A stretch of 47,209 bases of DNA, taken from the NCBI GenBank assembly GCA_016867335.1, contig VGJU01000006.1, positions 1 through 47,209 of the forward strand, given 5' to 3'. The notes under the pieces are model-generated. The model saw only the letters and a program-made list of their open reading frames with translations, was not told the origin of the DNA and did not search any database. The stretch is from Candidatus Zixiibacteriota bacterium (GTDB lineage Bacteria > JAAXHH01). The translations under genes and the position numbers were made by a program. Position 1 is the first letter of the stretch, and the number at the start of each line of letters is the position of its first letter. This document shows positions 1,462 to 31,584 of the stretch, piece by piece.

Positions 1462-3072
1462 TCAGGAAGAATTACGGCGGTATATATCGGCCCCGTTGAC
1501 GGTCGCTTCCTTGCGGTAGCCTTCGAGATGTTTTACTAGACGTGGATAACGCGACATCGGTTGATCTTCCCAATTGCTGGAAATGGGGGCCACATCGACG
1601 ATAAGTTCCGGCGGATGTTTTTCGAAATCCTCGTCCAGCATCTCCCAACTTCCCGGAACCACCCATTTCGATTCGTCGATGTCTTTGTGCGGCCTGCTGG
1701 CAAACATTCCCACCAGATATCCGCAAGTGGTAAGACGCACTGCCATTCGACGATTGGAAAAGCTATACAGATGCGGCGATGCGCCCCATACGAAAATACG
1801 ATCCGACGGTCTTGTTTGCATCGCAATATAATCGGTGATGGGCGTAAACGACAGGGTCTGTTTCCGGATGATATAGGCATATACGGTAAATCCGATGGCG
1901 GGAATCAGGGTCGCGGCGACAAAAAAGCGATGTATCCGCCGACGCCGCTCCGCCGTTTCTCCGGCAAGTCGGCCCATAAACGCCGTAAACGCGCGCCCGG
2001 CCAAAAGCGCCAACGGCGGCATCAACATCAAATGGTAGTGTCCCGGAAACCGCCATCCGGTAAACAGAGTAACATACGAGACCGCAAACCAGCCGAAAAT
2101 CAGCCATTCCTGAGCCGCCGACGCCGACCGGTCCCGGATCAGCGTCCGAGCGCTTGCGATAAATTGTCGAACACCGAAATACCAGATCAAACCCGCCGCC
2201 AGAATGACGGTCCCATGCACCAAAAACAACCGACGGACGACATAGGCGACGGTCGTGTCCACGTTGACAAATCGCATGGCGATCGTCCATGTCCAATATA
2301 CCATCTCCTCCCAGTTGCCGTTTATCTTGTGATAACCGATGACCGCTGCCGCGACGACGGAAAAGCCGGTCAACACCGTAAGCCCCTGGATAACCGTCGC
2401 TCGGAAAGACAAGGTGCGCGCGATCAAAAAGGCATAGGCAAAGTATCCGGCAAACACCCCCATCTGCGTGAGGCACGGCGTTCGGTGAAACCCTGCCAAT
2501 GCGCAAGACATTCCGCTCAACAGCAGATATGTCCACTTTCCGCTCCGCACGCCAAGAAAAAAACAAAGTACGCTCAGGGTCAGCGGAACCAGTGCGAAAA
2601 ATTCTACGTTGGCAGCAAGCGTATCACGCGGTAAATACGTGTGCGAGAAGACGATATACCCCACCGCTGCCCATCCGCCCGTCTGCGTCCCGGTGGTCAG
2701 ACATCCGATTTTGCGCACCATCAGCGCGGTCGCCAAAATATACCCGATGGCCACGACATGTACGGCCCACAGATTGTTCTGGCCAAACAGCAGAAAAACC
2801 GCGTAATACGTATAGTAGATAAACGGAGGCCGCATATCGACCGCCGTTACGTATATATCGCCACCGTACAGCATTTCCGAGGCGATAGCCCCGGAATACC
2901 CTTCATCGACCAAATACATCGAATCGAACAACGTGGGTGACCGCAAAATCAACACCAGCGCGAACAACGTGACATAGACACCGGGCGATTCGATCGCCCG
3001 CCGCATCCATTCGCCGCCGTACGCAAAGATAGTTTCCTTCTGTATGTCGGAAGAAGTCTCTCCCGGCGTCAT
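1462..3072 (-). CDS. GT39/ArnT-like polytopic membrane glycosyltransferase
   Basis: This 536-residue integral membrane protein has around eleven hydrophobic segments and a soluble C-terminal domain from about residue 420. The first periplasmic loop carries the acidic pair D56-E57 in VDEGYS and the later DMRPPF motif, both typical of GT39/GT-C enzymes such as ArnT that transfer sugars from polyprenyl-phosphate donors. The ATG at 3072 has a good ribosome site (GAGGAG, 5-6 nt away). It overlaps the upstream radical SAM gene, which ends at 3101 on the same strand, only if a longer start is used; with this start there is a 28-nt gap. The acceptor is unknown; a role in envelope glycolipid or glycoprotein modification is inferred from neighbours. 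Confidence 0.8.
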   Translation of the reverse strand: MTPGETSSDIQKETIFAYGGEWMRRAIESPGVYVTLFALVLILRSPTLFDSMYLVDEGYSGAIASEMLYGGDIYVTAVDMRPPFIYYTYYAVFLLFGQNNLWAVHVVAIGYILATALMVRKIGCLTTGTQTGGWAAVGYIVFSHTYLPRDTLAANVEFFALVPLTLSVLCFFLGVRSGKWTYLLLSGMSCALAGFHRTPCLTQMGVFAGYFAYAFLIARTLSFRATVIQGLTVLTGFSVVAAAVIGYHKINGNWEEMVYWTWTIAMRFVNVDTTVAYVVRRLFLVHGTVILAAGLIWYFGVRQFIASARTLIRDRSASAAQEWLIFGWFAVSYVTLFTGWRFPGHYHLMLMPPLALLAGRAFTAFMGRLAGETAERRRRIHRFFVAATLIPAIGFTVYAYIIRKQTLSFTPITDYIAMQTRPSDRIFVWGASPHLYSFSNRRMAVRLTTCGYLVGMFASRPHKDIDESKWVVPGSWEMLDEDFEKHPPELIVDVAPISSNWEDQPMSRYPRLVKHLEGYRKEATVNGADIYRRNSS

Positions 3073-3100
3073 ACGTCTCCTCGCATGTGACCGTTGCCGT

Positions 3101-4081
3101 TTATCCGGGGGTTCCCGCCGTTTTGGCCCGAAGATGCCCCAATGCTTCGCGCATACCAAACCGGAATGGATGGTTGTTAGCAAGCGATTCCGAAACCACG
3201 CAGTACACCCCGCATCCGGTCTGGCACTCTTTTTTGTAAAAGAAACTCTGAAGCAGTTCGGGCGTTACGTCCGTAAGGTCTATGTTGGGATGTCGGTTCA
3301 TGCTGCAAAGCCAGAATTTACCCTTGGCCGACACAAAAAAATACTTGTACCCGGCCACACAGGTCCAGTCGAGTGACTCTTCGTTGAGCAACGCCTGCTG
3401 ATATCTGAGGATGTGCCAGTTGGTATGAATTTTTTTGCCACGTTTTTTTTCCGCGACCTGAAGCCCAATCATAGCTTCAAGCGCTTCCTTTTCACCAGGA
3501 TCCGCTCCGTAGTGTTTGTCCGGCCCCGCGTGAATCAATCGTACATGCGCAGAAATGCCCTCGGAAAGCCCATAGTCCAACACGGCCTTCGACTCCGCCA
3601 GCGTTTCCTTGAACAGCACACCTGTAAGGTTAAACCGAAGCCCCGATTTTTTTAACAATTCCAGCTTGGGGATAACGGTTTTGAGCGATTTTCTTGTGGA
3701 AGGAATCGGTGTCATCCGATCCACCGAAATCTGCATCGAATCCAAACCGGCATCTTCAAGCCCCGCGATAAGTTCCGAACTCAGCAAAAATCCGTTGGTG
3801 GACATGCTGGTCCGCAAATCCGCCGATTTGCAATACCGGACGATCTCCACGATATCCGGATGCAAAAGCGGCTCCCCGCCCTGAAGACCGATACGGATAC
3901 ACCCCAATTCTTTGATTTTGTCGATCCACCTCTTCAGATCTTCCAGTGGCGGGTGCGGCACGCTGTTGTCGTACTCGGTACAGTACACACAATCCAAATT
4001 GCACCGATCCGTTACATAGAGATGACAGGCAATCGGTTTTTTATCGAACTCCCGTTTGATCATTTTCCACCAGAATCCCAT
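3101..4081 (-). CDS. Radical SAM protein with SPASM-like C-terminus
   Basis: A 326-residue radical SAM enzyme. The 4Fe-4S/SAM motif is C27-x3-C31-x2-C34 in DRCNLDCVYC, followed by GGEP at 68-71, the usual SAM-binding element. The C-terminus holds several more cysteines (WTCVAGYK, FWLCSMN, CQTGCGVYC), consistent with an auxiliary cluster of SPASM or twitch type. The ATG at 4081 follows GGAGG at good spacing. It probably forms an operon with the GT39-like gene downstream. Related proteins modify peptides or cofactors, but no precursor peptide is visible here, so the substrate cannot be named. Confidence 0.82.
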   Translation of the reverse strand: MGFWWKMIKREFDKKPIACHLYVTDRCNLDCVYCTEYDNSVPHPPLEDLKRWIDKIKELGCIRIGLQGGEPLLHPDIVEIVRYCKSADLRTSMSTNGFLLSSELIAGLEDAGLDSMQISVDRMTPIPSTRKSLKTVIPKLELLKKSGLRFNLTGVLFKETLAESKAVLDYGLSEGISAHVRLIHAGPDKHYGADPGEKEALEAMIGLQVAEKKRGKKIHTNWHILRYQQALLNEESLDWTCVAGYKYFFVSAKGKFWLCSMNRHPNIDLTDVTPELLQSFFYKKECQTGCGVYCVVSESLANNHPFRFGMREALGHLRAKTAGTPG

Positions 4082-4270: not shown

Positions 4271-5557
4271 TCACGACGCGGCTTCGCCCGAATAAGCTGC
4301 GGCGTGCAGGTTTTCGGGCGGTTGACGCCATAGCCACACCGCACGTATCCAGTGAAACAGTGCCGTCACGCCGGCCCATGCGGCTACCATTTCGAATGCC
4401 GTCAACGGAAACGAAAACAACGCACCGACCAACAACATGGGCACGTATATGTTCCGCCGACCGCTGATCTGACGGAAAGCGCGGTCCAACGCCGTATAAT
4501 CGAACAGTTCGACCTTGCGGCGCAACTTGAACAATCCGGTGGCGGCCCGGCCTGCAAAATACAGTACGGTAACGCCTCCGCTCAACGCCAGCGACCACGT
4601 TCCGTTGTCCCCGCTTTGGCTCAATACCCATCCCAACACCCAGTACCAAGACAATTCGTAGACGATGTCGAGGATGTGCTCAACCTGTCCGCCGACCCGG
4701 GAACACCGGACCGTCACACGAGCCAGTTTACCGTCTACCCCGTCGAGAACACCGACGAGCGCGGCGGCCACAAACCCGGCGATCAGCAGGCCCGACGCCA
4801 ACAGCCCGGTCGCAAAAAAGGCGACGACATTGGTCAGCACGGTCACCTGGTTGGGGGTAACGGCGGTCCTCGAAATCAAACGAACCAGCCGGTTTTCGAA
4901 CGGCGGATGTACATACTGTGCGGGCCAATCCAGCGCACCCTTCTGCGCGGCGTCGATAAGCCGGGCCTCTCCGGCGTGCGCATCCGCAGCCGAACGCACC
5001 GGAAGCCAAAAGGGCGGTAGGGTCCGGCGTAGATTGACGATATACGGGTTGATCGTCTGTATGTTCAACCGCCGAAGCAAAACCGGCGACATCTCCTCCA
5101 GTTGTTCCCAAAGCGTCGAAGCGCTCATTTCGGACGACACAAGCCTTTTCAGTGTGCCCGCGTCCAACAGCGCCAGCCGGCGCGACAACCCAATTTGCGG
5201 ATCGGCAAGCGCGGTGTTCGGACCGGCGGCGATTACGGCTTCGACAAGCCTCGGATCGTACAGATGATGCGCGTCGGCCAACAGACACGGGGCGGAAAAG
5301 TTATGGTTCCCCAAATCGTCCGTCTTTGCGTAGACTACGGCGGACAAGGAGGCAAGCCATCGCGCGTCGAACCGGTCCGGATGTTCGCGTAACGCCTCCG
5401 GCGTATCCCCGGATGGGCAGACTACCGTTACCGAACCCGCACCGAGCGAAGCGAAAACCCGCAAATGGCGTTCCAGCATGGAAACGCCGTACAACCGGAT
5501 TGTCGACCCTTCGAGGGAGGCTTTTTCATCCGCAAAAAGAAGGACATCAAAACTCAT
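4271..5557 (-). CDS. CDP-alcohol phosphotransferase with degenerate nucleotidyltransferase-like N-terminus
   Basis: A 428-residue protein in two parts. Residues 210-428 form a polytopic CDP-alcohol phosphatidyltransferase domain with TPNQVT (234-239) and the catalytic signature D272-x2-D275-G-x2-A-R280-x8-G289-x3-E293-x3-D297; the third acidic residue is Glu instead of Asp. Residues 1-190 align in layout with the cytidylyltransferase half of the 7163-8623 gene, but lack the GxGxR...PKPL nucleotide loop, so this half is probably inactive. The ATG at 5557 overlaps the flippase stop as ATGA and has a strong GGGAGGGGAGG site, implying translational coupling. It likely transfers a phospho-alcohol to a lipid or polyol acceptor; the substrate is unknown. 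Confidence 0.8.
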   Translation of the reverse strand: MSFDVLLFADEKASLEGSTIRLYGVSMLERHLRVFASLGAGSVTVVCPSGDTPEALREHPDRFDARWLASLSAVVYAKTDDLGNHNFSAPCLLADAHHLYDPRLVEAVIAAGPNTALADPQIGLSRRLALLDAGTLKRLVSSEMSASTLWEQLEEMSPVLLRRLNIQTINPYIVNLRRTLPPFWLPVRSAADAHAGEARLIDAAQKGALDWPAQYVHPPFENRLVRLISRTAVTPNQVTVLTNVVAFFATGLLASGLLIAGFVAAALVGVLDGVDGKLARVTVRCSRVGGQVEHILDIVYELSWYWVLGWVLSQSGDNGTWSLALSGGVTVLYFAGRAATGLFKLRRKVELFDYTALDRAFRQISGRRNIYVPMLLVGALFSFPLTAFEMVAAWAGVTALFHWIRAVWLWRQPPENLHAAAYSGEAAS

Positions 5558-7122
5558 GCCTCCCCTCCCGGAATCGTACGAAAAGCCTGCCACCTGCGTC
5601 GCAACATACCCGTCCCCCGCTCCCACACTTGGAGGTCTTCCATTTCCAACCCAAACTGTCGAAGCAACAGGATATAGGTGGGTAAGAATACGAGCGGAAG
5701 CGCGCCCATCCGCAACCAAGAAACGTCCGGCAACCCGGCGGAGACGACCGCGCCAAGCGCCAGCGCCCCCAATCCTGCCACTCCGGGTTTCCACCATGTC
5801 CGACGAAACGGATGGATACGATACAGATGATAGACCTCGATGATCCGAATCAACGTCAATAGCCCAAACGAGACCAAGGTGCTAAACGCGGCGCCGACCA
5901 TGCCAAAGGTCGGAATCAGCAACAGGTTGAGAAAAAAGTGAACAATAACAATAAACACCGTATTGACCAGATTGACGTACGGATGCCCGGACATGATGAG
6001 CATCATATCGCCCGCGCCGATGCTGGCATAGACTACCTGACTCAATGCCAGCAGGATCACAGTGGCAAGTCCGACACCGAACTCGGGTCCGAAAAGTCCG
6101 AGGACGTCCTTTCCCATCAGCAATACCATGCCGAAAAAGGCGATATTGACGGTCAGAATCCACCGAGCCACCAGTGCAAAATTGTGCTCCAGCCGTTCCA
6201 GTTCCCGCAGATGTTGAAGTTCAGCGATAATGGGGCCAAAAATGGGGTCGAACCACTGCCGTACCTTTTTTGTGGTCAACGCGATTTCGATGGCTATCGC
6301 ATAGATCCCCACCTGAAACGCCGGAAGAAAATATCCGACCATCAGCGCATCGAGCCGGATCATAAGCACATAGAGCAGATCGTACCCCATGACCGGAAGC
6401 GAAAACCGGGTGATGTCCGACCAAGGCCGTACCGAAGAAACGTAAGACAGACACGACCGCCACGAAAAAAATCGGGAAAAGATGTACAACGCGAAAACGG
6501 TTCCGCAAACAAGCGAGACGACATGCGCCAAGGCGATACCGACGATACGCCAGCCGATCAGAAACAACGCACAGGCAACGCCGAACATGATAAGCGGCTC
6601 CAGGATGCCTTTGATATACGCATCGTAGCGCATGATCTTATGGCCTCTGGTTACGCCAACCACGATCCATGTCAATGAAAGAAATGGTATGCCGGCCGAC
6701 AAGGCTTGGAGCATGGGCGTCATATCCGGCTTGTCAAAAATTCGATCCGCAATAAAGGGAGCGGCAAAAAACAGTCCCGTGCCGGTCGCAAGGCTTGCGG
6801 CAAAACCGAGTACGAAAGCATGCGCCAGCAATCGGTGCATCCGGCCGGGGTGCTCGTCGTGAAGATACTGTGGAACAAAACGAAGCGTTCCCTTGTCCAT
6901 GCCAAATGTGCCGAGCTTGCTGGTCAAGTCTATGACCGACCAGGAAAGGACGTATAACCCGAAAACCTCTGCGCCGAACAGTCGGGTGAGAATGATAAAG
7001 GCAATAGACTTTATCACCCGCGCGAGCGTGCCGAGGATATTGACACTTACGCCTCTGGCGATGACGGCGGCATCCGAGGTTCTGGGTGGCGACAGGGGTT
7101 TTGTAAGAGAGATTTCGCTCAT
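5554..7122 (-). CDS. Wzx/MurJ-like polysaccharide or lipid flippase
   Basis: A 522-residue membrane protein with 12 to 14 hydrophobic segments. It starts with a typical Wzx-like first helix region (GVSVNILGTLARVIKSIAF) and GAEVFGLYVLSWSV, as in polysaccharide biosynthesis (MATE/MOP superfamily) flippases that move undecaprenyl-linked glycans or lipids across the inner membrane. The start is uncertain: ATG 7122 lacks a clear ribosome site, while GTG 7185 would overlap the upstream gene by 23 nt. Its stop overlaps the next start (ATGA). Its position between two CDP-alcohol phosphotransferases suggests it exports a product made by them. Confidence 0.82.
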   Translation of the reverse strand: MSEISLTKPLSPPRTSDAAVIARGVSVNILGTLARVIKSIAFIILTRLFGAEVFGLYVLSWSVIDLTSKLGTFGMDKGTLRFVPQYLHDEHPGRMHRLLAHAFVLGFAASLATGTGLFFAAPFIADRIFDKPDMTPMLQALSAGIPFLSLTWIVVGVTRGHKIMRYDAYIKGILEPLIMFGVACALFLIGWRIVGIALAHVVSLVCGTVFALYIFSRFFSWRSCLSYVSSVRPWSDITRFSLPVMGYDLLYVLMIRLDALMVGYFLPAFQVGIYAIAIEIALTTKKVRQWFDPIFGPIIAELQHLRELERLEHNFALVARWILTVNIAFFGMVLLMGKDVLGLFGPEFGVGLATVILLALSQVVYASIGAGDMMLIMSGHPYVNLVNTVFIVIVHFFLNLLLIPTFGMVGAAFSTLVSFGLLTLIRIIEVYHLYRIHPFRRTWWKPGVAGLGALALGAVVSAGLPDVSWLRMGALPLVFLPTYILLLRQFGLEMEDLQVWERGTGMLRRRWQAFRTIPGGEA

Positions 7123-7162
7123 GGAAATAGCACGCCGGGCGTTTGGGGTAAGGCGGGGCCGG

Positions 7163-8623
7163 TCAGACGCTTCCGGCGGGTTCACCCTGCGTCTGCGTTT
7201 TCATGGCAACCGGGGAGGAAGCGGCGCGGTCTCTGGCGATCAGACGTCCCGTCGAAACAAATACGGCGATAGCCGTGGCAAACCCGCCTCCGGTTATCGT
7301 CCAGAACATCCAGTCAAGACGTCCTGCTGCCGCAAAGCACAGAAACAACATGGTAAAAAAGTCGCGTTTGCTCATCATTCTGAGGATGTCGAGCACGCGG
7401 GACATCAGGCTGGGACGGGATTTTTTCGCTCGGAACGCCTCGTTGTAGCGGACCAGGCTCCCGCCTTCTCCTGTAGCTGCCAGATAGTAATACATCAGCA
7501 AGATAGAAACGGCCACAGCCGCGAGGGATCCGCCGCCCAGAAGCCAAATACGCGGGGATGGGTCGGTATTTCCATACCCCCACAGCACACCGAGAAAAAA
7601 TGCAAGATACGTCAGGTTGTCGGTGACGGTATCCAGCCACGAACCGTACCGGGATTCCCGAAAGGTCAGTTTGGCGACTTCTCCGTCGCAACCGTCAAGG
7701 ACGGAGGAAAGCTGAAACAGCAACGCGCCCAGCAGGGTAGCTTGATACGAGCCTTCCGCGATCATGTAGGCGGAGACCAGCCCAGTGGCAAAAGTAACGA
7801 GTGTAACCTGATTGGGTGTAATGGGCGTGCGAACCAGCAACCGGCTGATCCGCGTGGAAATGGGGCGGTTGAGATAACGCGACACCCATCCGTCGGTAGG
7901 TTTGCGCAAACGGCGCAACAGGGTCCGCTCGGCGTGCGCCACCATGTCGGGCGTATCGACGTCCTGCCAAAAGCCGTCGCCGATGTCAAGCACCCGCATC
8001 CGCCCTTGCCGAGAAAGCGTCCGGATGCCGTCGCTGAGCGAGCATCCTTTCTCGGTCCGGCACGACTCCAGCGCATCGAACAACACCGGGGTACAGGCAA
8101 ACATGCCGGTGTCGATGGCATTGTATTCGTTCAGGTCTTTGCCGATTTCGGTCAGTCGGTCGCCTTCCGCACGGACCTTGGTCGCATCGTCTATATCGTA
8201 TATCTTGTCCGTGTTCCGGTCGACGGCCAGTACGCACTCTCCTGCGGCGACCGGAAGGTCGATCATGCTTTTCAGCGTCTTTTCTTCAAAAAGATGATCC
8301 GACATCATCAGGATGAAAGGCTCGGCCAGAAGAGGCCGGGCGGACAAGACGGAAACACCGTTGGGAAGCTCCCACTGGTCGTTGTGTACCCATTCGATAA
8401 GACCGACGAGTTGTGGGTCCGTATCGAGCGTGTTTCTGATCTGGTCCGCCGCATAGCCGGTGACCACGACAAAGCGCTCGATACCCGCCTTGCGAGCGGT
8501 CAGGATGATGCGTTTGATAAGGGGGACACCGGCAAGACGCAACAGCGGCTTGGGAGCCGCGCCGGTAACCTGCTGGAGACGGGAACCCGCGCCAGCGGCA
8601 ATGATAAGAGCGGTTTTGATCAC
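7163..8623 (-). CDS. Bifunctional cytidylyltransferase/CDP-alcohol phosphotransferase (IPCT-DIPPS-like)
   Basis: A 486-residue fusion. Residues 1-240 are a sugar-phosphate or inositol-phosphate nucleotidyltransferase with G11-A-G-S-R15, PKPL (24-27), a metal-binding MSDH near 107-110 and DVDTPD near 221. Residues 245-486 are a membrane CDP-alcohol phosphotransferase with TPNQVT and D310-x2-D313-G-x2-A-K318-x8-G327-x3-D331-x3-D335. This arrangement is that of inositol-1-phosphate cytidylyltransferase/di-myo-inositol phosphate synthase. All key acidic residues are present, so both halves look active. GTG start with AAAGG six bases upstream. No inositol-phosphate synthase gene is in the window, so the alcohol is inferred only by family. 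Confidence 0.85.
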   Translation of the reverse strand: MIKTALIIAAGAGSRLQQVTGAAPKPLLRLAGVPLIKRIILTARKAGIERFVVVTGYAADQIRNTLDTDPQLVGLIEWVHNDQWELPNGVSVLSARPLLAEPFILMMSDHLFEEKTLKSMIDLPVAAGECVLAVDRNTDKIYDIDDATKVRAEGDRLTEIGKDLNEYNAIDTGMFACTPVLFDALESCRTEKGCSLSDGIRTLSRQGRMRVLDIGDGFWQDVDTPDMVAHAERTLLRRLRKPTDGWVSRYLNRPISTRISRLLVRTPITPNQVTLVTFATGLVSAYMIAEGSYQATLLGALLFQLSSVLDGCDGEVAKLTFRESRYGSWLDTVTDNLTYLAFFLGVLWGYGNTDPSPRIWLLGGGSLAAVAVSILLMYYYLAATGEGGSLVRYNEAFRAKKSRPSLMSRVLDILRMMSKRDFFTMLFLCFAAAGRLDWMFWTITGGGFATAIAVFVSTGRLIARDRAASSPVAMKTQTQGEPAGSV

Positions 8624-8639
8624 AAAAAACCTTTATGCG

Positions 8640-10562
8640 CTAAAATATGGTCGAAAATCCAAGTGAGGCAGCGACATGCGACCGCGGCGTCAACTCTATC
8701 TCTTTAATATAGTCGAGCCGGACGACCAACGCCGCGCGGCGGGCCATAAATACCCGAACGCCTGCACCTCCATCCACCAGTACGGGATCGCGTCCCGGTC
8801 TTACCTCTACGCCTGCGCCCACGCTTACAAAGGGTGCTACGTTTTCACCCACTCCCGTCACATTATACCGATAAAAAGCACCCAATCGGATCACTTGATC
8901 GGGCTGAGGCGTATCTGCGGGCTGATTCACCTCGGAAATAGCCGCCGCCGCAAGACCCGTCGCGGAAATCGCCCCTATCGGGCGGGTTCGAACATGAGAT
9001 TCGTTTGCTTTAAACGCCAGTTGTCGCCCGGTTTCCTCGTCGGTAAACCGCTCACGAGACTCTATCACCGAAAAAACGCCTCCCAGTTCGTGTGTGCGGG
9101 TTACAAATACCCCGGCACGTACGGAAATCATACCGGGTATCCCCGACTTCGAAAGGGTATTGCCGACTCCTTCGACTTCGATCTGGCCCGGCTTCCACCT
9201 CAATTCCTGATAGGGTTGGGGAGACGGTCGCAACGAGGACGGCGCAAGACCGAGCGCCGCCGAGTCGAACGGAGTACGGGAAACCGGCTCGGATGTGTTG
9301 GGTAGGGTCGTCAAACCGGGACGAACTACATTTCCGGATCGCGCCGGCCAGACGGGTGTGGCATCGGCAACCGATGCGTTCGATTCCATACGCTCCGGGT
9401 TAAGGCGGTTTGCCGACGTCTCCGTCCGGGAAGCGGGCAGAACGGTTTCTGTCAAAAGACCGTCGGATAACCGAAGCGAGTAGGCAGGCGGAGTTCTGGG
9501 AGCCATATCTATCGAAAGCGGTGTATATACGGCCTCCGGAGGCAAATACCATACCCGCGCGACGGGTAAATGAAGTAGCGGGGTCACGCTCAAAACGGCG
9601 CACAGCACCAGCGGAACCACCGTACGGGGACCAAGGGCGTAGACGCGGCTGTCTACTTCTCCAAGCACGTCACGGATACGCTGCGCCGCCAGTGTGGCGG
9701 ATCGTGCCAGTTCCAACGCCCCTCGCCACGGCGCGTTTATCGCGCTCTCGGCTACCTTGAGCAGACTCGACGCATAGCTTCGGGGGCGCTGAGAAGCCTT
9801 GACGACGGCAATGTCGCAGGCACGCTCGGCCTCCACGGCAATACGGCGTCCCACCATCCAGGCGACCGGGTGAAAGAAAAAACATATACGGACCGCCTGC
9901 ACCAGCATCAGACTGATATGATCGCGTCGGGCATAATGAAGCAGTTCGTGAAGAAAAACCTGTCTCAGCTCCTGGGGTGAAAGCTGTATCAAACACCACG
10001 AGGGGACAACCACAAGAGGACGACCTACCCAGACGAGTGTCGGGCTGGCAAAATCGTCAGACATGCGTAACTCGACAGGGCGTCTGATGCCTGTGGCGAT
10101 TCGACATCGGTCAAAAAGCGCCTGCACCCAAGGGACCGGAATCGTCATGGTTTTGCGACTGTACAGTAACAACCGTATCAGACCGGCGGCGGTCCACCCC
10201 GTACCGATGGCTACAGCGATTCCCCAGAGCGTAAAAACGACCGCATAAGGATGTTCCAGCCAAATCGACAACATAGTCTGAGTAGGAACCGCTACGTCCG
10301 TTCCGACGACCCGCGTATCAAAGAGGTTGAGCGGAAGAGCGATCGGCCCTTGCCACGGAATGACAAGCGACAGCAAGGGTTTGACGGCGACAAGCAACCA
10401 CAGAATATGCCGGATGCGTGGCGCAGGCTCTCCATAGATTCGAATAAGCAACCAGACGACACAGGCCAGAGCAAGCATTTCAAGGCTGGGAATCAGCAAC
10501 GCCTGAAATACGCTGTGACCTATCTCGTCAAGCCGGGAAATCGCCTCGGCGGCGTTAGACAT
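8640..10562 (-). CDS. M56 (BlaR1/MecR1-type) metallopeptidase with beta-rich, outer-membrane-barrel-like C-terminus
   Basis: A 640-residue protein. Residues 1-335 match the BlaR1/MecR1 sensor protease: N-terminal membrane helices, the zinc site H205-E206-L-L-H209 in FLHELLHYARRDH, downstream EAERACD acidic residues, and a last helix near 313-335. Instead of a penicillin-binding sensor, residues 340-460 are Pro/Ser/Thr-rich and 477-640 are a beta-rich domain with alternating hydrophobic strands and Gly-rich turns, ending SLGFSTIF with a terminal Phe as in outer-membrane barrels. It is one uninterrupted frame. The ATG at 10562 overlaps the blaI stop by 8 nt with AGGA upstream. It is presumed to sense envelope state and cleave the BlaI partner. 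Confidence 0.83.
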   Translation of the reverse strand: MSNAAEAISRLDEIGHSVFQALLIPSLEMLALACVVWLLIRIYGEPAPRIRHILWLLVAVKPLLSLVIPWQGPIALPLNLFDTRVVGTDVAVPTQTMLSIWLEHPYAVVFTLWGIAVAIGTGWTAAGLIRLLLYSRKTMTIPVPWVQALFDRCRIATGIRRPVELRMSDDFASPTLVWVGRPLVVVPSWCLIQLSPQELRQVFLHELLHYARRDHISLMLVQAVRICFFFHPVAWMVGRRIAVEAERACDIAVVKASQRPRSYASSLLKVAESAINAPWRGALELARSATLAAQRIRDVLGEVDSRVYALGPRTVVPLVLCAVLSVTPLLHLPVARVWYLPPEAVYTPLSIDMAPRTPPAYSLRLSDGLLTETVLPASRTETSANRLNPERMESNASVADATPVWPARSGNVVRPGLTTLPNTSEPVSRTPFDSAALGLAPSSLRPSPQPYQELRWKPGQIEVEGVGNTLSKSGIPGMISVRAGVFVTRTHELGGVFSVIESRERFTDEETGRQLAFKANESHVRTRPIGAISATGLAAAAISEVNQPADTPQPDQVIRLGAFYRYNVTGVGENVAPFVSVGAGVEVRPGRDPVLVDGGAGVRVFMARRAALVVRLDYIKEIELTPRSHVAASLGFSTIF

Positions 10563-10950
10563 CGTCGATCCTATGGGCTTTGCGGTCGAGCAACTGCCGT
10601 AGTTCATCCGCCTCGGTCGCCGTCAGCGTGTCCGTCTCGATCAAATGCAAATACAAAGAACGCGGCGAACCGGCAAATAGTTTGTCCACCACCGCCGTTA
10701 CCGTGTCTCGGCGAACCCCTTCCGGTTCGATGACCGGATGGTATACATAAGCCCGACCCTGCGCCGTATATTTGACAAATCCCTTTTGCGTCAGAATCGT
10801 CAAAACCGTCTGTACCGTAGTATAGGCCAACGGGCGTTGCTCCTCCAGCGCGTCAACGATCTGACGCACTGTAGCCTGTCCGTACCGCCACACCACATTC
10901 ATGACGTCAATCTCCAAATCGGTCAAAAGCGAAAGTTTTTTTCTTGCCAT
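10555..10950 (-). CDS. BlaI/MecI-family transcriptional repressor
   Basis: A 131-residue winged-helix repressor of the BlaI/MecI/CopY family. The DNA-binding part includes LTDLEIDVMNVVWRYGQATV and the recognition segment AYTTVQTVLTILTQKG, and YHPVIE marks the conserved cleavage and dimerisation hinge of the family. It heads a minus-strand run whose second gene is its probable cognate M56 protease. The start at 10950 follows GAGGG; a longer in-frame start at 11028 is less likely. It probably represses its own promoter at 11064-11092. No beta-lactamase gene is nearby, so the regulon is probably the envelope genes downstream. Confidence 0.9.
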   Translation of the reverse strand: MARKKLSLLTDLEIDVMNVVWRYGQATVRQIVDALEEQRPLAYTTVQTVLTILTQKGFVKYTAQGRAYVYHPVIEPEGVRRDTVTAVVDKLFAGSPRSLYLHLIETDTLTATEADELRQLLDRKAHRIDDV

Positions 10951-11063
10951 CCCGCTACCCTCTGTCACCGGCCTGTGACGTTTGTAGACACCTGAAATGC
11001 CGGACAACAACTTCTCTCCGACACCCAACTATAACCTTAGTAGAAAACACCAGTATATTTTTA

Positions 11064-11092
11064 AAGATATATTTTTAAAAGACGCTTGTCAA
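11064..11092 (-). promoter_or_regulatory. Promoter of the blaI-M56 run
   Basis: On the minus strand, a perfect -35 TTGACA (11087-11092) and a -10 TATCTT (11064-11069) are separated by 17 nt. The promoter lies about 115 nt upstream of the BlaI start, and an AT-rich tract surrounds the -10. It sits in the 306-nt divergent gap 10951-11256, which otherwise contains only the lpxH promoter. A BlaI operator would be expected near it but none was identified with certainty. Confidence 0.65.
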
Positions 11093-11140: not shown

Positions 11141-11256
11141 GGGGACCCATCCGGTGTTCTTTCTCCCCGCGTATTGCCGTTTGCGTCGAACCCGGTAAAT
11201 CCGACCGATCCGACGAATACCAGCACAGCCCTTTTACGACCGGCCTTTCTTTCCCC

Positions 11257-12051
11257 ATGCCCGATCCCGTCTATTTTCTGTCGGATGTCCATCTTGGCGC
11301 CGACACTCTCGAAAAAGAACAGTACAAGCGCGACAGACTTCTTGCCTTTCTGCGCCATCTACAAGGTCAAACCCCGCTTCTTTATATCGTGGGCGATCTA
11401 TTCGATTTCTGGTTCGAGTATCAAAGCGCGATCCTGAAACAGCATTTCGGGGTGCTTCGGGCGCTGAGCGAACTGGTCGAACGGGGTACCCGAGTGGTAT
11501 ATATCGCCGGCAACCACGACTTCTGGCTGGGCGATTTTTTACGCGAACAGATAGGTGTGGAAACCGTCTATGGCCCGCTTACCGTCGAACATCAAGGCAG
11601 ACGGCTGTTTGTCTGTCACGGCGACGGCATGATCGGAAGAGATTGGCGTTACCGGTTTATGAAAAGGATACTGCACAACCGCACCAGCATATGGCTGTTC
11701 CAACTGGTGCATCCCGACATGGGGGTGGCGTTGGGAAGGCTCGTTTCCCGGCTCAGCCGGCGACATGGAGGTCCGCTACGCTGGGATCCCAAACAGGCAT
11801 ACAGAACCCTTGCGCTCGATATGCTCGAAAAACAACGATATGATGCCATCGTGTTAGGACATGTACACAGCCCCGATCTGTATCGGCAGGACGAAAAAAC
11901 CTATCTCAACCTCGGCGACTGGGTATGTCATTTTACTTTTGGACGTCTTTCCGACGGTAGGCTTGAGTTGAGACGTTTTACGGAAACGCTTGCCGAGGAG
12001 GTCGTTTCATCTGTCGGCGAGCAGGTCGTCACGCCATCAGGGAAAGAATAA
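11257..12051 (+). CDS. lpxH: UDP-2,3-diacylglucosamine diphosphatase (LpxH-like)
   Basis: A 264-residue calcineurin-like metallophosphoesterase. Metal-binding motifs occur in family order: D10-x-H12 in SDVHLG, GDLFDFW near 46-52, GNHD at 85-88, HGDG near 121, and GHVHSP. The GDLFDFWFEY segment is typical of LpxH, which hydrolyses UDP-2,3-diacylglucosamine to lipid X in lipid A synthesis at the inner face of the inner membrane. The ATG at 11257 begins the conserved fold; no strong ribosome site is seen. Its 3' end overlaps the convergent sixA gene by 23 nt. Confidence 0.85.
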   Translation: MPDPVYFLSDVHLGADTLEKEQYKRDRLLAFLRHLQGQTPLLYIVGDLFDFWFEYQSAILKQHFGVLRALSELVERGTRVVYIAGNHDFWLGDFLREQIGVETVYGPLTVEHQGRRLFVCHGDGMIGRDWRYRFMKRILHNRTSIWLFQLVHPDMGVALGRLVSRLSRRHGGPLRWDPKQAYRTLALDMLEKQRYDAIVLGHVHSPDLYRQDEKTYLNLGDWVCHFTFGRLSDGRLELRRFTETLAEEVVSSVGEQVVTPSGKE

Positions 12052-13642: not shown

Positions 13643-15383
13643 TCAAGGTTTCTGTATATGGGAAGGTTCCGGGGCGTCCAGTTCTTCGCGGATTAGATGG
13701 AGCAGGGCGTTTGGGGTAAAAGGTTTCTGGAGGAGCGGAATACCGGTTCCGAACACGTTATGGCTGACCAGCGTTTCGTCGGCATAGCCGATGATAAAGA
13801 TGAGTCGAATGTGGGGATACGACTGGATCAAGCGCTGGACTAGTTCGTCGCCGTTCATCATAGGCATGATGACGTCCGTGATTACCAGATGCACCGAGTC
13901 TGCGTTACGTTCGAAAGGTGCCAGACCGTCCACTCCAGTGGCGGCATCGAGAACGGTATAGCCCGATCCCTGCATGATTTGGCGCGCGATTTCGCGCAGA
14001 TCGTCCTGATCTTCCACCAGCAGGATGGTTTCATGCCCTGACCTTGGGGGAGGGTCTGCGTGAGGTACATAGATCCCACTGCCGGATGCCTCTTCGTTAC
14101 CGTGCGAAACAGGCAGAAAAATATTAAACGACGTGCATTCACCCGGCGCGCTTTTTACCGTTATTTGACCGCCGCTTTGCGTGACGATGCCGTATACCGT
14201 CGCCAACCCGAGCCCCGTGCCTTTGCCCGGTCCTTTGGTGGTAAAAAACGGTTCGAAAAGATGAGCATGTACCGTGGCATCCATTCCCATGCCCGTGTCG
14301 CTGACCGTAAGCCGCACGTACGCGCCCGGCGGTATGCCCATGCTACGCGTCTGCAGTTCGTCCATCACCACCTTGGAGGTTTCGAAGCGAAGCACCCCCC
14401 CCGAAGGCATGGCGTCTCGCGCGTTGACCGCCAAGTTCATGATGACCTGCTCCAACTGGGTCTGATCTGCGAAAATGGGATCCAAATGGGCGTCCAAGTT
14501 GAACTCTACCTTGATGTTGTCCTGAAGAAGATGTTCGAGAAGGCTGTCCAAATGTAAATACTTCGTTGACCAGCAGAATGTCCGCCTTGAGTACCTGGCG
14601 TCGGCTAAAGGCCAGCAACTGCTGGATCATGGCCGCGGCACGATGACCGGTTTTTTGAATTTGCAGCGCGTTGCGTTGGAGAGGGCTGTCTTCCGGAAGA
14701 CGTTTCTCGATCAGATGGGCATATCCGACGATCGAGGTAAGCAGGTTGTTGAAGTCATGAGCAATACCACCGTCCAGACGCCCTATGGCTTCCATCTTCT
14801 GCGAGTGCAACACTTGTTCTTCTAGCCGTTCCCGCTCGAAAAACAGACCCAACTGGGCGGCAATCACCCTGAGCATCTGAATTTCGCTGTCGTTGGGCTG
14901 AGGCAACTGCTTATCGCATAGCTCCAGCACACCGGAAACCGCATCCCCGACGATGATCGGAAACGCTATGCCACGCAGAGGATAAACGCCGCTTTCGGTC
15001 ATGTATCCGGTTTCGGAAAGGTCAATCACCTCCTGACGTGTCGCCCAGACTTTCCCGGGAATACCGATTCCGGATTCGTATGTCATACCGCGATACTGGG
15101 CGGCAAACCGTTCGAGTTCCGGCGATGCCCCATGACAGACGGCGACGCAACGCAACACCGGCGCATATCGATCGGTCTGCCATAATGCACCAAACGAGCA
15201 ATCGAGGGTATCGCGTAGCGTAGTCAGTACGTGGGCCGCCGCCTGATCGACGGTAGTCGCCTCCGCCAGAATCCGTGTCACCGCATGTTGAGCCGCCAGC
15301 CGACGTGTTTCTTGGGTTTTTTCCCGGACCCCCGCTTTAAGATCGGAGTTGGCATCTTCCAATGCCTTGAGCAACTCCTTGTT
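13643..15383 (-). pseudogene. Hybrid sensor histidine kinase, split by nonsense and frameshift
   Basis: The kinase has a coiled linker, a GAF domain (about 15290-14840), a HisKA box with AHDFNNLL, an HATPase domain (N-box NLAVNARDAMP, DTGMGM, FEPFFTTK, GKGTGLGL) and a C-terminal receiver with Asp in TDVIMP. The coding frame breaks near 14552: the N-terminal part continues to a stop at 14343 in a meaningless frame, while the ATPase half continues in another frame from 14551. An in-frame TAA at 15384-15386 also separates it from the response regulator; removing that stop would give RRLEI-x-NKELLKALED, a continuous coiled coil. The receiver also has Ile where the switch Ser/Thr is expected (FIIGYADE). 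The most likely reading is a decayed gene. Confidence 0.72.
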
Positions 15384-28959: not shown

Positions 28960-31584
28960 TTATAGCCTGTGTCCTAAGTTCACATACACCTCTCTTGCGC
29001 CAAAGCTGGCCGAGCCGTAGTGTACTTCCAGAGGTCCTAAGGGCGTGTCCAGCCCGATCCCGCCGCCGACGCCGTGCCGCAGGTCGTCCCAGCGGAAGTC
29101 CTGACGTTGCTGCCATACCCCGCCATAATCGTAGCGGGCTTCTGCAAACACCCTTGGATAAAGTCGGGCACGTAGCATCACGCTTCCCTGAAACAGATAG
29201 TCCCCCCGAAACTGATCCGCACGATACCCGTAAAAACTATCCATACCGCCGAGCGCGAACTGTTCCGAAAAGGGTATGTCACCCTCCCCAACCCCAAATA
29301 CTATCTTGGGGCGAAGGGTCAGTCGTTGGGCCAGCGTCCGATACCACTCGAAAGAGCCGTAACCGAGCAGAAAACGCTGATGTCCGCCAAACACCGCCCC
29401 TGCCGTTTCCAGTCGGGTTTCGTGCAGATGCCCGTTTGCAGGAAACGGATACCGGTCCAAATTGTCTACCTGCGATTTGACGATCAGGCTTCGGATGTCG
29501 CCGCGTCCTGAAGGCGCGCGTCCGGTGTACGGTCGGTCGGTCACCCCTTCGACGCGAGCCGTAAGCGATACGGCGCCAAACCGGGCGATCTGCTGTCCGA
29601 TGGTCGCACGGATGCCATGACGGGTTTCGCGAAAATCTCCCACTCGGCGCAATCCGTCGTATACGTACCGGTCGTGCTCGTGCCGATATCCGGAAAGACG
29701 ATAGGTCAGATAGGTTTTGAATACCCGGTCCGAACGCAAGTCAACGTCATAGTGTCGCCGTCTGTTACCATACAAGGCCCGATTGGCAAGAGACGCGCCG
29801 GTTCCGAACAGGTTGGCCTCGGTCAGCGCCAGAGAACCCTCGCCGTAGCGCTCCCTGTCGAACCGTGCTCCCAGTTTGACGATATGCGAAGGATGTTCCC
29901 GTAAGCGGATCATCACCACGGGGCGGTTGTTTTCTCTGACGATGTCGAGCGCCGCCGATTCGAAAAGCCCGGTTCCGTATATGGCGACGATACCTCGGTT
30001 CGCTTTGGGGGCATGATAGACATCTCCCGCCCGAAGCGGAAACTCGCGCAAGATGACCCCATCTCGCGTCCGGCGGTTGCCTTCGACGCGAACGGCGGCG
30101 ATACGGCCTTCGTTGATGACGGCGAGAACCTCCCCTGTAGCGGGATCGAGCGTAAAGGTTTCGAGACGGGCAAGCGTGCGACCTCGGTCGTGAAACCATT
30201 TGAGTATCGTGTCGCCGTCTTGTCGGAGTCGTTTTAGATCGACGGGCCGTCCGATGCGGGATTGCAGAAGTCCGACCAGCACGAACGAGTCGGTTACGGA
30301 AACCCCTTCCATCCTAAAACCCGTCAGCAAAGGCGTTTCGGTCACGAGGTAGCGGACGTGGCGGTCCTGCGGCGTACCGGTCACCTCGGCTTCCACATCG
30401 GCAAACGTCCCCAGTCCGTAGAGCATGGCCAAATCCTGACGGATCAGGTCGTTGGATGCCGGACCACCGGGTTGTACCCTAAGCGCGGCTTCCAGCCGTT
30501 TTTCGTCCTGCGGCGCGCACCCGGCGATCGACACTCGGCCTGCCGATTCGTCGTCCGAAACCGGTTTATGGTGCGTTTTCATGAACGCGCGAATCGCTGA
30601 AAGATGCGGTCCCACACTTTCGTATCCTTGACGGATCAACTCGTCGATACGGGTAAAGGAAGAGGAGGGATGATCGCCGATGGCCGGTGTGATCAGTAGG
30701 TCGGCGGCGGCTTTTTGGGTCTGGGAGGCGCGGATGACCGAAATCGAGATCACCTGATCTATGATGTCCCACGGAGCTGCCAACTGATCACGCGTGCGCA
30801 GTTCGTCCTGTGTGTTGACCGCCACGACGAAATCGCTGCCCATCTCTCTTGCCAGATCGACCGGAAGCGCTTCGACGATACCACCGTCCGACAGCAGACG
30901 GCATTCCCGTTCAACCGGCTGAAAGATGACCGGAACGGCGGAGGAGGCCCGCATGGCTTCGGCGAGGTTGCCATGATCCATCACGACTCGCTGACCGGAC
31001 GTCAGATCGGTTGCTACGGCTTTGAACGGGATGGAAAGCCGGGAGAAGTCGCCGGCGGCTCGATAATCAGCCGAAAGGACAAGCGAGGTAAAAAGATGTT
31101 GAAGTTTCTGCCCTACGGACAATCCGCCCGGAATCGAAAGTCGAAACCCTCGTATCCGGAATTCGATGGTATGGTCTGTCTGATCTGGCTTGCGTGTGAC
31201 AAACAGACTCTGCCGGGATGGGTCGTTCCGGAACAACTGCCCCCAGTCGGTATGAAGCGCCAAATGGCGCAGGCTGTCCGCCGGATAGCCTGCGGCGTAC
31301 AAACCGCCGATGACCGCCCCCATGCTGCTTCCGGCGATAAAATCTACCGGAATCCCGGCTTCTTCGAACGCTTTTAGCACGCCGATATGGGCAAATCCTC
31401 GCGCACCGCCCCCACTCAATGCCAGCCCTATCCGGGACCGCATCTCCGGAGACCGATGAAGCAGGTCTAACTTCTCGCCGACAGGGTTGAGCCGGACGGT
31501 CCGGGCGGGTGGAGTCTCTTGGGCGGTGGAAAGGTTCGCCTCAAGCATCACCCCGGCCACAAAGAGAATGAAAAAAAATTTCAT
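28960..31584 (-). CDS. Patatin-like phospholipase fused to Omp85 barrel (type Vd, PlpD-like)
   Basis: An 874-residue protein: signal peptide (1-22), patatin domain (about 50-340) with oxyanion motif GGGARG (58-63), nucleophile Ser87 in GSSMG and catalytic D233 in SDGG, POTRA-like repeats (about 380-530), and a 16-strand-type Omp85/BamA beta barrel (about 555-874) containing GGMDSFYGYR and TPLGPLEVHYG. This is the layout of type Vd autotransporters, in which the barrel anchors or exports a phospholipase A. The ATG has GGAG seven bases upstream. It is convergent with the serpin gene. Confidence 0.92.
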   Translation of the reverse strand: MKFFFILFVAGVMLEANLSTAQETPPARTVRLNPVGEKLDLLHRSPEMRSRIGLALSGGGARGFAHIGVLKAFEEAGIPVDFIAGSSMGAVIGGLYAAGYPADSLRHLALHTDWGQLFRNDPSRQSLFVTRKPDQTDHTIEFRIRGFRLSIPGGLSVGQKLQHLFTSLVLSADYRAAGDFSRLSIPFKAVATDLTSGQRVVMDHGNLAEAMRASSAVPVIFQPVERECRLLSDGGIVEALPVDLAREMGSDFVVAVNTQDELRTRDQLAAPWDIIDQVISISVIRASQTQKAAADLLITPAIGDHPSSSFTRIDELIRQGYESVGPHLSAIRAFMKTHHKPVSDDESAGRVSIAGCAPQDEKRLEAALRVQPGGPASNDLIRQDLAMLYGLGTFADVEAEVTGTPQDRHVRYLVTETPLLTGFRMEGVSVTDSFVLVGLLQSRIGRPVDLKRLRQDGDTILKWFHDRGRTLARLETFTLDPATGEVLAVINEGRIAAVRVEGNRRTRDGVILREFPLRAGDVYHAPKANRGIVAIYGTGLFESAALDIVRENNRPVVMIRLREHPSHIVKLGARFDRERYGEGSLALTEANLFGTGASLANRALYGNRRRHYDVDLRSDRVFKTYLTYRLSGYRHEHDRYVYDGLRRVGDFRETRHGIRATIGQQIARFGAVSLTARVEGVTDRPYTGRAPSGRGDIRSLIVKSQVDNLDRYPFPANGHLHETRLETAGAVFGGHQRFLLGYGSFEWYRTLAQRLTLRPKIVFGVGEGDIPFSEQFALGGMDSFYGYRADQFRGDYLFQGSVMLRARLYPRVFAEARYDYGGVWQQRQDFRWDDLRHGVGGGIGLDTPLGPLEVHYGSASFGAREVYVNLGHRL

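Follow-up and report, generated by a model that had tools for sequence, protein, structure and literature searches.

The locus described here raises the question of whether a single polypeptide may link a protease of the inner membrane to a barrel in the outer membrane, and what such a protein would report to the cell. In the window, by which we mean the whole stretch of 47,209 nucleotides that was analysed, a minus-strand frame runs uninterrupted from an ATG at position 10562 to a stop at position 8640 and encodes 640 residues. An earlier note on this DNA had taken the frame as continuous from a protease through a linker to a beta-rich tail, a reading borne out by orthologues that are conserved at full length. 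The product, which we refer to as the receptor, has a three-part layout:

8640..10562, minus strand: the M56-barrel receptor gene, a single open frame of 640 aa with full-length orthologues
9564..10562, minus strand: M56/BlaR1 membrane and zinc-protease domain, residues 1-333, assigned from PF05569 and a structural match to BlaR1
9186..9563, minus strand: disordered tether, residues 334-459, with pLDDT <50 over 334-478, low identity and near-constant length
8643..9185, minus strand: predicted eight-stranded outer-membrane barrel ending in Phe, residues 460-640, assigned from an AlphaFold2 (AF2) model, a match to OprF and an analysis of the strand faces

Within the same family and order, other genomes contain full-length orthologues, one each, at 38-47% identity. 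A profile of the barrel tail matched all 16 genomes examined of the phylum (Candidatus Latescibacterota), and in 15 of the 16 the M56 domain and the tail occur in one frame. Every full-length orthologue, across five genera, has this same single frame and the same chain end. In G013, a genome of low quality, the orthologue falls into two frames, with the break inside the barrel (G013:C397; L015 and L032), possibly through an assembly error or because the gene is broken.

The identity of the N-terminal half is clear from several lines of evidence. Peptidase_M56 (PF05569; E 1.1e-28, residues 26-276) is the sole Pfam match above cut-off in the receptor, and the full-length predicted model superposes on BlaR1 (8exs) with a Z of 17.2 and 3.0 A over 239 residues (VIA). 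The features within this half are:

9936..9950, minus strand: HELLH zinc motif, residues 205-209, with H205, E206 and H209 invariant in 13 orthologues
9813..9827, minus strand: ExxxD motif, E246RACD250, invariant in the orthologue alignment
9561..9626, minus strand: last transmembrane helix, residues ~313-334, a hydropathy peak in 13 of 13 sequences and an AF2 helix at 312-326

The HELLH motif lies exactly where the earlier note had placed it, and its assignment of an inner-membrane M56 zinc protease is upheld by the Pfam match, the BlaR1 fold and the intact motifs. HExxH, ExxxD, D214, Y263 and R295 are all invariant in the orthologue alignment; H205ELLH209, E246xxxD250 and D214 match H201ExxH, E242xxxD and D210 of BlaR1, and the alignment makes Y263 and R295 candidate equivalents of Y261 and R294 (for the roles of these residues in BlaR1, see PMC9834060). 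Hydropathy peaks near residues 22-40, 50-68, 107-133 and 314-332 are consistent with the four-helix topology of BlaR1, and the last of the transmembrane helices places the C-terminal part of the chain on the periplasmic side. No transpeptidase domain was detected in the receptor by Pfam, and the NCBIfam model blaR1_generic aligned with residues 107-325 only, reaching 74 bits where its cut-off is 400. Judged by the sequence of its catalytic core and by its partner gene, the receptor belongs to the M56/BlaR1-type transducers; it is not a strict beta-lactam sensor, because the penicillin-binding domain is absent.

The segment that follows was expected to be a Pro/Ser/Thr-rich linker, and it is indeed rich in Pro, Leu, Ser, Ala and Thr and predicted to be disordered (pLDDT ~25-40 over 334-478 in the full-length model). 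Its sequence has turned over, with 16% identity between genera, while 11 of 13 sequences keep it at 121-131 residues and two close relatives have 160, a combination of steady length and sequence turnover that is the pattern expected of a spacer. By our own arithmetic, 123 residues at ~0.36 nm each would extend ~44 nm, which is sufficient to cross the periplasm.

For the C-terminal part we relied on an AF2 model of the tail, run on an alignment of 15 tails. The model has eight strands (residues 2-6, 18-26, 31-41, 96-107, 115-128, 134-146, 150-161 and 168-178 in tail numbering), in agreement with the proposal that the tail is a barrel and not some other fold. Its mean pLDDT of 60 is low because a long loop (43-93 in tail numbering, <50) pulls the average down, with most strand blocks at ~70-85; the last strands of the barrel are of low confidence in the full-length AF2 model. 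The closest structural neighbour was OprF (4rlc; Z 17.2, 1.7 A over 120 residues), followed by a Legionella porin, a designed transmembrane barrel, NspA, OmpA, OmpW and PagL (all VIA), whereas Foldseek searches of the PDB with the tail model gave weak E-values (~5e-3). Since none of the 15 tails matched any Pfam family at E values up to 1, and the tail sequence had no match in the PDB, the barrel assignment rests on the predicted model together with the strand patterns. Of the earlier description of this region, the terminal Phe stands and the barrel fold is supported, and the boundaries shift: the tail had been given as about 160 residues from position 477, and we set its start to 461, since a first strand (461-466, IEVEGV) precedes that position, which makes it ~180 residues long.

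The strand patterns are consistent with the model. On the hydrophobic face, presumed to point outward, 61% of residues are ILVFMA and 6% are charged, and on the other face 26% are charged and 21% are Gly. The conserved residues E586, R588, R603, R565 and D597 are all on the polar face. Alternation between the faces exceeds that of within-strand shuffles modestly (p = 0.02), so the fold is supported rather than proven. The chain ends in SLGFSTIF, and the terminal Phe is present in all full-length orthologues. Taken together with the model, these features suggest that the tail would sit in the outer membrane of the cell. The genome contains eight Omp85-family matches, from which it follows that barrel-insertion machinery is present; this and the lpxH-like gene beside the locus bear on an outer-membrane location only indirectly. 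Short turns alternate with longer loops in the predicted barrel, and with its N-terminus in the periplasm, the turns at 487-490, 568-574 and 607-609 would be periplasmic and the long loop would be outside:

8901..9059, minus strand: long variable loop (L2) between strands 3 and 4, residues 502-554, predicted to face outward, 15% identical, with little variation in length (49-58 residues)

As the earlier note had observed, a BlaI-type repressor is encoded next door; its gene is adjacent to that of the receptor in all nine loci examined, and in the window its end overlaps the receptor start by 8 bp. Upstream of it are a candidate operator and a promoter-like element:

10555..10950, minus strand: blaI repressor gene, 131 aa, Penicillinase_R (PF03965) E 1.2e-33
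11026..11043, minus strand: candidate BlaI operator CTACTAAGGTTATAGTTG, which has the form CWACTA-N6-TAGTWG upstream of blaI in four genera
11087..11092, minus strand: TTGACA, a -35-like element of the blaI promoter, found by reading

The BlaI protein aligns with MecI and BlaI over nearly its full length. MecI and BlaI are cleaved at Asn101-Phe102 (PMC9834060); in this scissile region our BlaI has His-Leu instead, and LHLI is kept in nine BlaI orthologues (L023 included). The receptor protease would, on our reading, cleave BlaI. In the genome of the window the 18-bp dyad is the only match. A pattern scan for exact matches gave it as unique in two of the four genera (G000 and G015), while G014 had two matches and G002 three, one of them in each case being the dyad before blaI. 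In the most sampled genus it is degenerate, retaining 8-10 of 12 positions. In eight of nine loci a TTGACA/T element is found 129-153 nt upstream of the blaI start. The position and conservation of the dyad suggest that it is the BlaI operator and that the circuit autoregulates its own operon. A second match in G002, the perfect palindrome CAACTAATTAATTAGTTG (L144, G002:C13, 2379-2396), is situated ~100 bp before another Penicillinase_R gene.

The genes around this pair are also conserved:

7163..8623, minus strand: nucleotidyltransferase and CDP-alcohol phosphatidyltransferase (inositol-phosphate type), by Pfam and NCBIfam, order kept in nine loci
5554..7185, minus strand: polysaccharide/lipid flippase of the MOP family, PF13440 and PF01943, order kept in eight loci
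11254..12051, plus strand: divergent lpxH-like UDP-2,3-diacylglucosamine diphosphatase gene, NF003743 E 5e-29, conserved in nine loci

The lpxH-like match is below the curated cut-off of that family. In nine loci the gene order is lpxH-like (divergent), blaI, receptor and nucleotidyltransferase/CDP-alcohol gene, with the MOP flippase next in eight. In the window the next gene starts 16 bp past the receptor stop, a gap short enough that an operon is likely, and on this spacing and order the nucleotidyltransferase/CDP-alcohol gene and the flippase gene are probable members of it. No beta-lactamase or PBP gene was found among the neighbours scanned.

The reading we favour, to which we assign a probability of about 0.6, is that of a membrane-bridging receptor in which the state of the barrel is relayed to the protease, and from there through BlaI cleavage to derepression of the operon. 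Four transmembrane helices and a zinc protease facing the cytosol would be held in the inner membrane, the disordered tether of ~125 residues would cross the periplasm, and the BAM machinery would insert the eight-stranded barrel into the outer membrane. Once anchored, the barrel would keep the protease in one state. If the barrel failed to insert, or moved with respect to the inner membrane, the M56 domain would switch state and cleave the neighbouring BlaI. Cleavage would derepress the operon headed by the CWACTA-N6-TAGTWG operator, which would comprise blaI, the receptor, the inositol-phosphate-type lipid-head-group transferase and the flippase. The earlier note had likewise proposed a protein reaching from inner to outer membrane that could sense barrel assembly or envelope spacing, with BlaI as output, and the three checks it put forward (structure prediction, comparison with barrel families, survey of M56 homologues) all favour that proposal.

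An alternative is that the barrel, although in the outer membrane, is a receptor for an external ligand (a glycan, an antibiotic, a phage or a host molecule), and that binding to its extracellular loops, rather than anchoring, drives the protease. BlaR1 itself senses a ligand on its own C-terminal domain (PMC9834060), and L2 would offer a surface of 49-58 residues. The distribution of conservation is the opposite of that expected for a shared ligand surface, however: between genera the barrel strands, the most conserved part of the receptor, are 60% identical, compared to 47% for the M56 domain, 16% for the tether and 15% for the loop at 502-554. Conserved strands with a variable loop fit a barrel with a structural or anchoring function better than one that shares a site for a ligand, and while a ligand specific to each lineage would still fit this pattern, we consider ligand sensing unlikely.

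It might also be proposed that the barrel mainly tethers the two membranes, with M56 and BlaI serving only to autoregulate the levels of the protein and of its operon, and that no specific stress is sensed. The conserved length of the tether is consistent with such a role, as is the fact that in two genera the sole exact match to the dyad precedes the receptor's own operon. Yet none of the catalytic motifs varies, and every locus examined keeps the BlaI partner, which suggests that signalling has been selected for, and we therefore regard pure tethering as distinctly improbable compared to the membrane-bridging receptor.

Still less probable, in our estimation, is that the eight-stranded barrel of the tail is soluble in the periplasm, similar to an avidin or lipocalin, and binds a small molecule in place of the penicillin-binding sensor. 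Avidin chains are among the structural neighbours of the tail model at Z ~10 (VIA), and no outer-membrane family was matched by sequence, but membrane barrels score higher (Z 17.2-14), and a hydrophobic face opposed to a conserved charged and Gly-containing face is better suited to a membrane barrel with a polar interior, as are the short turns alternating with longer loops and the Phe end in all full-length orthologues. Finally, the possibility that a sequencing or assembly error joined two genes, one for an M56 protease and one for a small outer-membrane protein, to which the unrelated folds of the two halves and their separation into two frames in G013 might be thought to point, is negligible and was rejected, because the fusion is conserved across the phylum with one frame and the same end in full-length orthologues of five genera, and a search of 384 genomes found the barrel nowhere as a protein of its own.

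How does a membrane-bridging receptor of this kind relate to known systems? With BlaR1/MecR1 and BlaI/MecI of Staphylococcus and Bacillus it has in common an M56 zinc protease with HExxH and ExxxD, inner-membrane helices, a predicted extracytoplasmic C-terminal domain, an adjacent BlaI-family repressor and a dyad before the repressor gene; it differs in that the penicillin-binding domain is absent, its place being taken by a disordered tether and what is predicted to be a barrel of the outer membrane. By analogy of layout, the nearest known architecture appears to be that of the Bacteroidota Dma anti-sigma factors, which consist of a regulatory domain, a membrane helix, a disordered tether and a C-terminal barrel and are described as occurring solely among the Bacteroidota (PMC13088901). 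In both, a single polypeptide combines a regulatory output in the cytosol, a helix in the inner membrane, a long disordered tether and a barrel at the C-terminus. In Dma, however, the N-terminal domain is of the anti-sigma type, there is a single transmembrane helix and the target is an ECF sigma factor, whereas the receptor occurs in another phylum, beside BlaI, and is not a Dma because its output comes from an M56 protease that has several membrane helices. Proteins in which an M56 domain is joined to TonB_C are similar in that the periplasmic domain may reach outer-membrane proteins, but TonB_C is soluble and periplasmic rather than an outer-membrane barrel, and the receptor tail has no Pfam match. 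In OprF and OmpA an N-terminal barrel is followed by a peptidoglycan-binding domain. The predicted barrel of the receptor has the same eight-stranded fold, as indicated by the 120 residues that superpose on OprF; unlike those barrels it is C-terminal, is attached to an inner-membrane protease and belongs to no recognised sequence family.

Single chains predicted in both membranes are rare, the Dma anti-sigma family being a recent example. It is an even bet, in our view, that the receptor represents a new trans-envelope class, which arose independently of Dma and in which a site-specific protease/repressor switch, physically connected to an outer-membrane barrel through a disordered tether of constrained length, reports outer-membrane assembly or membrane spacing directly to transcription and controls a surface lipid/glycan operon. 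If so, the same layout would have arisen in another phylum with an unrelated output module (protease and BlaI), and direct wiring of a barrel to a transcription factor would suggest a general solution to outer-membrane surveillance. The M56/BlaI family would also be widened beyond antibiotic sensing, and the threading of one protein through both insertion machineries would become a directly testable question.

To place the receptor among other M56 proteins we drew on two surveys: one covered 79 frames longer than ~410 aa, taken from 384 genomes spread over the domain, and the other 30 loci in a phylum represented by 82 genomes, about eight of which end before a stop; at least one gene is common to both. 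None of the ~108 other M56 proteins matched the barrel profile or had a barrel-like end; the survey of homologues proposed in the earlier note turned up other tails but no barrel. Among the 79, TonB_C was present in 15, and HEAT repeats, TPR, carboxypeptidase regulatory-like and secretin-type domains were also found (by Pfam, among the 25 commonest families, a scan that could miss an unknown barrel family). Stand-alone homologues of the tail were not detected outside the order in the 384 genomes, and the combination of M56 with an outer-membrane barrel was not found in the literature searched. A weak tail match in an 850-aa frame of G040 is to an unrelated protein and was judged to be chance, as were those in G003, G004 and G006 (E ~1e-4 to 1e-3), of which only that in G004 was inspected and is antisense to another open frame. 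The relative G014 has two further M56 proteins without the barrel tail (C52 and C175; L091 and L103).

Several other minus-strand genes in the window are of note. A second CDP-alcohol transferase (4271-5797) and a radical SAM protein (3101-4081) are possibly part of the same operon as the receptor, and positions 1462-3183 encode a predicted protein of ~560 aa without a Pfam or NCBIfam match. At 13643-15374, a GAF and HisKA frame (14343-15374) overlaps a HATPase_c and Response_reg frame (13643-14551), and the two are possibly a single hybrid histidine kinase split by a frameshift. The gene at 28960-31584 encodes a patatin-POTRA-Omp85 fusion (Patatin E 6e-32, Omp85 E 5e-26), which is arranged like a PlpD-type (type Vd) autotransporter.
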